A DNA stretch of 42,724 nucleotides from Candidatus Peribacteraceae bacterium (GTDB lineage Bacteria > Patescibacteriota > Gracilibacteria > JAHISY01): the NCBI GenBank assembly GCA_021734705.1, contig JAIPIJ010000002.1, positions 1 through 42,724 on the forward strand, written 5' to 3'. Made by a program: the position numbers and the translations under genes. Under the pieces are notes generated by a model. It had not been told where the DNA came from. It saw only the letters and a program-made list of their open reading frames with translations, and searched no databases. Positions 17,026-33,844 of this stretch are shown here, piece by piece. Position 1 is the stretch's first letter, and every line of letters begins with the position of its first letter.

Positions 17026-17067
17026 GGCTTGCCATGAGCGATCTCGCGAAGCGAGAGAGCCGAATGG
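17026..17067 (-). repeat. tRNA-3'-flank palindromic element (tRNA-Thr copy)
   Basis: On the plus strand it starts with GGCTTGCCAT, has a central hairpin (TCTCGC, GAA, GCGAGA at 17042-17056) and ends CGAATGG. The final TGG is the complement of the tRNA CCA end. The same framework occurs after tRNA-fMet (33643-33679) with a different central hairpin. It may work as a processing or termination signal, or be a repeat that uses CCA as its edge. Confidence 0.6.
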
Positions 17068-17139
17068 AGCCGCCTTCGGGGATTGAACCCGAGACCCCTC
17101 CCTTACCATGGGAGTGCTCTACCACTGAGCTAAGGCGGC
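17065..17139 (-). tRNA. tRNA-Thr (GGT anticodon)
   Basis: 75 nt including an encoded CCA. It folds as a 7-bp acceptor stem (GCCGCCT with AGGCGGC), a D-arm GCTC/GAGC with loop AGTGGTA, an anticodon stem CTCCC/GGGAG with loop ATGGTAA (anticodon GGT, reading ACC and ACU), variable loop GGGTC and a T-arm CGGG/CCCG with TTCAATC. The discriminator base is U. It sits between rplU and rpsR, and partial copies of its 5' half are found immediately upstream. Confidence 0.96.
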
Positions 17140-17193
17140 GGGTTGAGTTGATTTTATTCCGAGAAGTGAAGGTCGGGTCAGGGGTGCTCTACC

Positions 17194-17243
17194 GGCTGCC
17201 TGTCCGCCGTAGCCCCGAGCGAAGCCGAGGGGCGAAGGTGGAA
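17194..17243. repeat. Palindromic element 1 inserted at the tRNA-Thr D-loop
   Basis: An imperfect outer stem (TCCGCCGTAG against CGAAGGTGGA) encloses a perfect inner hairpin (CCCCGAGC and CCGAGGGG arms). It lies exactly between GTGCTCTACC and GCTAAGG of a tRNA-Thr 5'-half copy. Confidence 0.7.
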
Positions 17244-17303
17244 GCTAAGGCGGCGGGTTGAGTTGATTTTATTCCGAGAAGTGAAGGTCCGGGTCAGGAG
17301 TGC

Positions 17304-17353
17304 TCTACCGGCTGCCTGTCCGCCGTAGTTCGCCGTGGCGAACGAAGGTGGAA
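17304..17353. repeat. Palindromic element 2 at the same site, with a different apex
   Basis: It has the same outer stem as element 1 (TCCGCCGTAG and CGAAGGTGGA), but the inner hairpin is TTCGCC/GGCGAA. Conserved ends with an exchanged apex point to a repeat family evolving by compensatory or recombinational change. The left boundary is approximate, by alignment with element 1. Confidence 0.65.
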
Positions 17354-17371
17354 GCTAAGGCGGCGGGCTGC

Positions 17372-17475
17372 TTAGTTCCTGGTTGCTAGATTTTATTACT
17401 AAGGTAGCTAGCCGATCGTTAGAATTATATAAGCTAGTAACCAGTAACTAGGAACTAGCAACTAGCAACTACAAG
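17372..17475. repeat. 7-bp repeat array (6 units) with an upstream inverted arm
   Basis: Positions 17434-17475 read CTAGTAA, CCAGTAA, CTAGGAA, CTAGCAA, CTAGCAA, CTACAAG in exact register and run into the rpsR stop codon (17469-17471). TTAGTTCCTGGTTGCTAG at about 17372-17389 is close to the reverse complement of the first units (15 of 18 bases), so the locus could form a hairpin with a loop of about 44 nt. Confidence 0.75.
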
Positions 17476-18209: not shown

Positions 18210-18243
18210 TTTCCACCGGAGGCGGATCCGCCTCCGGTGGAAA
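18210..18243. repeat. 34-bp perfect palindrome in the rpsF-ssb spacer
   Basis: Two 17-bp arms (TTTCCACCGGAGGCGGA and its reverse complement) with no loop. It contains the words TTCCACC and GGCGGA seen at the ends of the tRNA-associated elements. As RNA it would form a very stable hairpin between rpsF and ssb; without a T-run it is not a standard terminator, though it could lower ssb/rpsR expression or protect mRNA ends. Confidence 0.8.
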
Positions 18244-33645: not shown

Positions 33646-33676
33646 TTGCCATTCGAAGCTCCGAAGGAGCGAAGAA

Positions 33677-33679
<3 letters not shown>
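33643..33679 (-). repeat. tRNA-3'-flank palindromic element (tRNA-fMet copy)
   Basis: On the plus strand GGCTTGCCATTC, inner hairpin GCTCC/GGAGC (33658-33670), then GAATGG. The outer stem CCATTC/GAATGG uses the complement of the tRNA CCA end. It has the same framework as 17026-17067 beside tRNA-Thr. Confidence 0.65.
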
Positions 33680-33751
<72 letters not shown>

Positions 33752-33775
33752 ATAAGATTGATGTGATTTGATATT

Positions 33776-33844
33776 GTCGCCCGAATCAGCGATCTTCCCG
33801 CCTAGCGGGACGAGCTATCCGCCGCGGCGGACTCCACCCCGCGA
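33776..33844 (-). pseudogene. Decayed tRNA-fMet copy with palindromes in the D-loop and anticodon arm
   Basis: On the minus strand the copy repeats the 5' part of tRNA-fMet (TCGCGGGGTGGAG at 33844-33832 and TAGCTCGTC at 33817-33809). CAGTGG of the D-loop is replaced by the perfect palindrome TCCGCCGCGGCGGA (33818-33831), and the anticodon arm by TCCCGC-TAG-GCGGGA (33796-33810). The remaining T-arm region is only vaguely recognisable, and the 3' acceptor strand is absent. It cannot be a working tRNA. The 3' limit is uncertain. Confidence 0.7.

Follow-up and report, generated by a model that had tools for sequence, protein, structure and literature searches.

Phages and islands are known to use tRNA genes as landing sites, and we know of no description of these genes as sites at which palindromes replace single arms. 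Among short palindromic repeats, Rickettsia palindromic elements (RPEs) sit mainly in protein genes, targeting of tRNA arms being, to our knowledge, no part of their description, and REP sequences are normally dispersed between genes. REP sequences are GTAG- and CGTC-tagged, RAYT-associated palindromes that have a constant foot and occur in many copies (PMC3733652). The nearest worked-out case for the loci described here is SegB of T-even phages. In phage T4, SegB is a free-standing GIY-YIG enzyme that cuts inside tRNA genes and drives the tandem amplification of tRNA and segB (PMC13096335). A search of the open-access PMC literature returned no precedent for arm-swapped tRNA copies.

The window analyzed here, a stretch of 42,724 nucleotides from a Candidatus Peribacteraceae bacterium, is contig 51 of an 854-kb assembly that is 85% complete and comprises 51 contigs. 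It carries two tRNA genes, for tRNA-Thr(GGT) and tRNA-Met(CAT), both on the minus strand (Table 1). On the 5′ side of tRNA-Thr lie two tandem units, each composed, on the tRNA strand, of nucleotides 1-12 of the tRNA, a palindrome, CAGG, a degenerate remainder of the D arm (GGTAGAGCAC; CAGCCGGTAGAGCAC) and an AT-rich leader that resembles the leader of the real tRNA-Thr gene. The initial annotation had recognized two tandem copies of the 5′ part of tRNA-Thr, of 115 and 110 bp, whose inserts have the outer stem in common and differ in the inner hairpin, and our analysis agrees: these are the periods of the units, each unit begins with nucleotides 1-12, and the two palindromes combine the same outer stem with different apices. 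Its span of 17129-17367 does enclose two real units but opens inside the functional tRNA, and the copies end at 17364. The D-loop bases, which it described as replaced, are in fact kept after the palindrome, which is inserted between nucleotides 12 and 13 (CAGTGGTAGAGC becoming CAGCCGGTAGAGC). Conserved T.C and C.T mismatches make the outer stem an imperfect one. Its exact form was found four times in the genome, each time adjoining a tRNA gene (reversed control, 0), and a tRNA gene lies no more than about 1.3 kb, and in most cases much less, from each of the 13 weaker relatives retrieved by blast. As RNA, the region shows no unusual folding (z -1.9). A second example within the window, missed by the initial annotation, is the copy of tRNA-Met at 33752-33843. 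The palindromes at the 3′ ends of the two tRNAs follow a layout also observed at other tRNA 3′ ends, where the CCA of the tRNA itself opens a related palindrome. Repeats of the ACTAGTTACTAGCAACTAG type form degenerate runs at positions 17372-17470 of the window and in many tRNA upstream regions of the genome. A 34-bp perfect palindrome (TTTCCACCGGAGGCGGATCCGCCTCCGGTGGAAA, 18210-18243) separates an rpsF-like from an ssb-like gene and lies some 55 nt upstream of the ssb start (minus strand).

Table 1. Features of the tRNA-Thr(GGT) and tRNA-Met(CAT) loci in the window
Feature	Position	Strand	Evidence
Palindrome at tRNA-Thr 3′ end, imperfect; 5′ arm opens with the tRNA's own CCA (CCATTCG...CTCATGG), followed by CAAGCC	17032-17067	-	
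Functional tRNA-Thr(GGT), single copy, CCA encoded	17065-17139	-	ARAGORN; Rfam RF00005, 65.3 bits
Proximal unit, 115 bp: palindrome-bearing 5′ part of tRNA-Thr followed by leader	17140-17254	-	
Proximal unit, copy of tRNA-Thr nt 1-12 (GCCGCCTTAGCT)	17243-17254	-	
Palindrome 1, TCCACCTTCG-CCCCTCGGCTTCGCTCGGGG-CTACGGCGGA, inserted after tRNA nt 12	17203-17242	-	
Proximal copy, 3′ part of D arm GGTAGAGCACCCC	17181-17193	-	
Distal unit, 110 bp: second tRNA-Thr copy, other apex	17255-17364	-	
Distal unit, copy of tRNA-Thr nt 1-12 (GCCGCCTTAGCT)	17353-17364	-	
Palindrome 2, TCCACCTTCG-TTCGCCACGGCGAA-CTACGGCGGA	17319-17352	-	
Distal copy, 3′ part of D arm GGTAGAGCACTCC; 13 nt identical to the real tRNA	17297-17309	-	
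Palindrome at tRNA-Met 3′ end, begins with the CCA of tRNA-Met	33649-33679	-	
Functional tRNA-Met(CAT), second tRNA of the window	33677-33751	-	ARAGORN and Rfam
Upstream copy of the 5′ part of tRNA-Met, two arms swapped, and leader	33752-33843	-	
Copy of tRNA-Met nt 1-12	33832-33843	-	
Palindrome TCCGCCGCGGCGGA replacing the D loop of the Met copy (tRNA sequence up to nt 12 and again from nt 19)	33818-33831	-	
Palindrome TCCCGCTAGGCGGGA replacing the anticodon arm of the Met copy	33796-33810	-	

About 22 of the 33 tRNA genes of the genome have a copy of themselves (at least 12 nt) in the flank, the 5′ part upstream and the 3′ part downstream, and other tRNAs, which served as control, seldom match there. 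In the truncated copies a GC-rich palindrome interrupts the D arm, the anticodon arm or the T arm or takes its place. Palindromes reach a density of 6.1 per kb within the 100 nt upstream of tRNAs and 4.3 downstream, compared with 0.5-1.1 per kb elsewhere. Five palindrome families (TCCGCC..GGCGGA, TCCCGC..GCGGGA, TTCGCC..GGCGAA, TCCCGA..TCGGGA and CCTGCC..GGCAGG) account for 35 occurrences within 250 nt of tRNAs (16.3 kb) and for a single one in the 179 kb sampled as background from this incomplete genome, an enrichment of about 385-fold (Fisher, 6e-37). On the strength of these densities and counts we rejected chance palindromes. The distribution bears out the idea that palindromic elements occupy a defined place in decayed tRNA copies, for the elements are not scattered at random away from tRNA fragments but concentrate at copies of the own tRNA. 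The refuting condition set by the initial annotation, a random distribution unconnected with tRNA fragments, was thereby put to the test and did not hold. The proposal of the initial annotation that the D loop of tRNA genes is the target holds in part: the D loop is one target, but exact replacement most often concerns the anticodon arm, and elements also occur at T arms, T loops and 3′ CCA ends, which led us to reject targeting of the D loop only, and each element resides in a copy of the neighboring tRNA itself, not of a random tRNA. We also rejected an assembly artefact, since this arrangement is found again in other contigs, in congeners assembled independently and in cultured Bacteroidota.

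A two-sided test, in which the 9 nt on each side of a palindrome near a tRNA were compared with that tRNA, was applied to the genome under study (G000) and two congeners (G003 and G004; the other congeners compared here are G001 and G005). It found 23 palindromes embedded in a copy of the own tRNA, against 1.6 expected using other tRNAs. The stretch of tRNA that is lost corresponds to an arm, most commonly 27|45. In anticodon-arm swaps, observed at Glu, Val, Ala, Pro and Gln, the left side stops at nt 26-27 and the right side resumes at nt 44-45; D-arm swaps were found at Lys, Met and Pro, T-loop cases at other tRNAs, and one-sided cases at Asp (D arm) and at Gly, Thr and Pro (T arm). For instance, an Ala copy in G004 reads ...TAGAGCA[TCCCGATGTGATATCGGGA]GGGTCAGG... 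against CCTGCTTTGCAAGCAGG in the gene, and in a Thr copy of G003 the T arm AGCGGTTCAAATCCGCT is exchanged for ACCCCGCCAAGCGGGGT, of equal length. Among 110 anticodon-arm swaps at 70 tRNA loci, the left part is 100% identical to the own tRNA in 38 of 109, and the swap must therefore be early. Two weak tRNA matches (21 and 19 bits) at C39:10943-11107 of the genome correspond to two tandem copies with a swapped anticodon arm (TCCCGATGGACATCGGGA) at the end of a contig from which the parent tRNA is absent.

The Thr copies are D-arm members of this arm-swapped class that have no GIY-YIG gene. Their insertion point, GTAGCT|CAG, and stem type recur in decayed copies of tRNA-Ala, tRNA-Arg, tRNA-His and tRNA-Thr(CGT) in the same genome and in Arg copies of G003 and G004, the host being in every case a copy of its neighboring tRNA. 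In the 20 D-arm stems, pairs 1-3 and 5-6 are paired in 19-20 of 20, the T.C and C.T mismatches at positions 7 and 9 are present in 20 of 20, and the outer-stem pairs covary (CCAGCC/GGCTGG, CCATCC/GGATGG, CCAACC/GGTTGG); the element further has a constant CARG tail and nested apices. Conserved mismatches and a fixed foot are REP-like features found in the D-arm class only, the perfect palindromes being devoid of them. This imperfect stem argues for autonomous REP-like palindromic mobile elements, perhaps moved by HUH/RAYT transposases on single-stranded hairpins, that would enter hairpin loops including those of tRNA arms; such insertions would be lethal in working tRNAs and so visible in spare copies only, and GIY-YIG genes would merely occupy the same niche. 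The genome does encode five Y1_Tnp proteins of RAYT size (L054-L058, 180-236 aa), and the CCTGCC..GGCAGG family splits loops without deletion (16|16, 58|58, 74|74). However, within 1.5 kb on either side of the five Y1_Tnp genes we found neither a palindrome of the perfect families nor a convincing REP-like stem, and we rejected RAYT-flanking palindromes on that basis. Like REPs, the elements are short palindromes with a constant foot and many copies; unlike them, they are nearly confined to tRNA flanks despite the availability of other intergenic DNA (1 in 179 kb versus 35 in 16 kb) and they replace tRNA arms. Insertion does not exchange a whole arm exactly, and we regard an origin as REP-like elements as possible but rather unlikely.

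At the orthologous rpsR - tRNA-Thr - rplU locus, no upstream copy is present in G001, G004 and G005, which have empty sites, whereas G003 carries two identical copies with the T arm swapped and the genome under study two copies with D-arm inserts; copies therefore arose after the lineages split, and more than once. Variable presence among congeners also weighs against the copies being functional RNAs, that is, tRNA-like decoys or processing leaders whose hairpin arms would be held by structural selection. Such a role would suit the tandem identical units, the observation that swapped arms are always hairpins, and the Thr copies of G003 and the Arg copies of G004, which retain both acceptor strands around the swapped arms. 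Most copies, on the other hand, are without one acceptor strand and cannot fold as a tRNA, so that the complete cloverleaf of a tRNA-like RNA is missing, and the replacements come from a few recurring sequence families instead of arbitrary stems. Folding of swapped and unswapped leaders was alike or went both ways in a comparison that considered avoidance of RNA misfolding as the reason for swaps and whose acceptor-pair index is valid only for tRNAs with an encoded CCA. Selection for an RNA function is in our view improbable.

Of the 13 GIY-YIG genes of the genome, one (715 aa) is most likely uvrC. Eight of the 11 small stand-alone genes with context lie within about 300 nt of a tRNA (p 3e-11), and the GIY-YIG genes linked to swapped-copy loci elsewhere had been missed by the initial annotation. 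Four of the tRNA-linked proteins match PF01541 (E 4e-17 to 3e-14) and thereby possess the catalytic domain that characterizes a homing cassette. The solved structure nearest to a tRNA-linked nuclease is that of the stand-alone UPF0213 protein BH0048 (1zg2, E 3e-5), a group for which the open-access PMC literature yielded no linkage to tRNA genes. Another stand-alone GIY-YIG gene (L074, C4:3000-5500) is located about 200 nt from the tmRNA gene, on the opposite strand. Across the class, a tRNA occurs within 1.5 kb at 40 of 58 GIY-YIG loci and at 3 of 25 rplU control loci outside the genus; the proportion is 23 of 30 for homologues of a Gln-linked protein and 17 of 28 for those of an Ala-linked protein. 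Both sets of homologues adjoin mixed tRNA isotypes, and we rejected isotype-specific GIY-YIG subfamilies. The isotype is thus not conserved at these loci; empty sites in relatives were seen at the Thr locus, which has no GIY-YIG gene and is the only place checked. The parallel with the T-even phages lies in a small GIY-YIG gene beside tRNA genes and in tandem repeats of tRNA and nuclease, while the phage setting differs from the chromosomal one here and SegB is not reported to involve arm-replacing palindromes (PMC13096335). SegB recognizes the motif RAWTSGAAC.

Partial copies next to a complete tRNA are also the known footprint of integration, with one complete and one partial tRNA copy at attL/attR (PMC9897764), and the copies could accordingly be decayed remnants of ordinary tRNA-integrating elements, the downstream 3′ copies being placed as at attR. 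Here, though, 5′ copies are as common as 3′ copies, the spacers measure from 15 bp to about 1 kb and hold no cargo other than GIY-YIG genes, and no integrase lies nearby: the sole tyrosine recombinase of the genome is on contig C37, where no tRNA was detected. Since integration would also leave the palindromes in the arms of the partial copies unexplained, this reading is largely refuted and we consider it very improbable.

A total of 84,980 species genomes were scanned for exact matches to the anticodon-arm swap pattern TAGAGCNTCCCGATGN{1,5}ATCGGGANGGTC, so that the cross-phylum loci were chosen by a single pattern. The scan returned 98 stretches, mostly from Bacteroidota, including cultured species (carriers belong, for example, to Sediminibacterium, Algoriphagus, Niastella, Salegentibacter and Marinifilum), together with Patescibacteria, Armatimonadota, Acidobacteria and a few others. 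An intact tRNA was present within 500 nt in 62 of the 80 stretches examined, many of the remainder being at contig ends; in Algoriphagus sp. A40, three tandem units occur, the last followed by an intact tRNA-Ala. After exclusion of the search-pattern matches themselves, the loci of other phyla contained 39 two-sided swaps against 4.4 expected, and TCCCGA..TCGGGA was found 62 times in 129 kb near tRNAs and 7 times in 566 kb away from them. Within 1 kb of a swapped copy, the same loci encode 36 GIY-YIG domains, all 36 on the tRNA strand, compared with 2 in the remaining 524 kb. The exact TCCCGA signature occurs in 3 of 380 sampled Patescibacteria genomes, and the system is therefore patchy. These results bear on a neutral origin, in which replication slippage would produce tandem tRNA duplicates and template switching at hairpins would produce the palindromes without a dedicated enzyme. 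Perfect palindromes, nesting and swaps bounded by hairpin bases do fit template switching between hairpins, but one palindrome family is conserved at tRNAs between phyla and the GIY-YIG linkage is too strong to be incidental, and a neutral by-product appears unlikely to us.

The observed association and anatomy, namely partial copies of the own tRNA, arm-exact palindromes, lineage-specific gain and linkage to GIY-YIG genes, lead us to read the Thr units, tentatively but as a serious possibility, as remnants of a tRNA-targeted, homing-like process that would combine GIY-YIG cutting, partial duplication and disruption of homology by a palindrome in the spare copy. Small stand-alone GIY-YIG endonucleases would cut tRNA genes of many isotypes at conserved arms, and repair would leave what is seen at these loci, one intact tRNA and one or more tandem partial copies of it, with or without a GIY-YIG gene between them. 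Within the partial copy, a palindrome of one of the few recurring families takes the exact place of an arm or splits its loop. The selective advantage may be twofold: the swap would leave only a short unbroken match to the working tRNA, usually of 12-27 nt, so that the spare copy and its cargo escape deletion by recombination, and it would also remove the nuclease target, in both cases allowing the palindrome-bearing copy to persist. The palindromes themselves might arrive during repair, if another sequence able to form a hairpin is used to mend an extruded hairpin arm that has been cut. We counted in favor of this homing-like process the own copies at about 22 of 33 tRNAs, the family enrichment, the two-sided swaps, the identity of many left parts to the own tRNA, the empty orthologous sites, the GIY-YIG linkage, the GIY-YIG ORFs that stop at the D-loop TAG of a copy and the SegB precedent. 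Against it stand the GIY-YIG subfamilies, which are not tied to one isotype, unlike a classical homing site, and the working tRNA, which apparently stays uncut. The exact signature is rare in Patescibacteria, unbiased two-sided swaps are few (5 in the class-wide set collected without bias towards palindromes), as are GIY-YIG ORFs ending at a D-loop TAG in such a set (2 of 84), and for many swapped copies, the Thr units included, no GIY-YIG gene is nearby. Uninterrupted homology of 61 nt at Ile and 49 nt at the Thr copies of G003, long stretches retained in a few copies, runs counter to the shortening of homology. Exact arm replacement, moreover, is not predicted by homing models; it could be accounted for if an extruded arm were cut at its base in a structure-specific manner and another hairpin were then joined in. 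In a bolder form of this hypothesis, which we consider doubtful, a mobile system exchanging hairpin arms would extend across phyla, with a structure-specific GIY-YIG nuclease excising extruded arms, palindromic hairpins filling the gap and the tRNA being restored alongside.

The pattern has very strong statistical support and is met again in phyla that are not related, cultured species among them. It connects tRNA genes with an abundant family of small GIY-YIG nucleases that have no known function, and points to an apparently undescribed mobile system living on these genes. Replacement of one hairpin by another, if true, would be a mode of DNA movement not described before. The loci form a natural series, from empty site to duplicate, swapped duplicate and nuclease-bearing duplicate, which lets homing and hairpin exchange be tested, and tRNA annotators should be cautious over decoy copies.

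Some GIY-YIG genes extend into the tRNA copy that follows them. In the genome under study, the GIY-YIG ORFs at tRNA-Ile (L068, C49:1048-1311) and tRNA-Val (L059, C43:8471-8720) enter the next tRNA copy and end at its D-loop TAG, as do those at 15 loci retrieved with the search pattern; at tRNA-Ile, the frame stays open across the acceptor strand and the palindrome (LGDYPPQADG*). The D-loop TAG serves as stop for 2 of 84 GIY-YIG ORFs in the class-wide palindrome-unbiased set and is therefore a feature of a subset only; despite these 17 loci, we rejected it as the general GIY-YIG stop. A palindrome in frame within an ORF recalls RPEs, which likewise lie inside existing genes, and the comparison with RPEs made in the initial annotation is apt only in spirit; RPEs, however, sit mainly in protein genes, whereas here these two ORFs are the only ones that enter a tRNA copy, one of them across a palindrome, and the rest of the palindromes are in tRNA copies. 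Among loci L331-L360, most tRNAs have the GIY-YIG gene on their 3′ side, but most tRNA-Leu neighbors have it on their 5′ side, on the same strand. In-frame TGA codons are present in the GIY-YIG and L21 genes of class relatives G018, G036, G044, G057 and others, a sequence feature consistent with TGA recoding in parts of the class.
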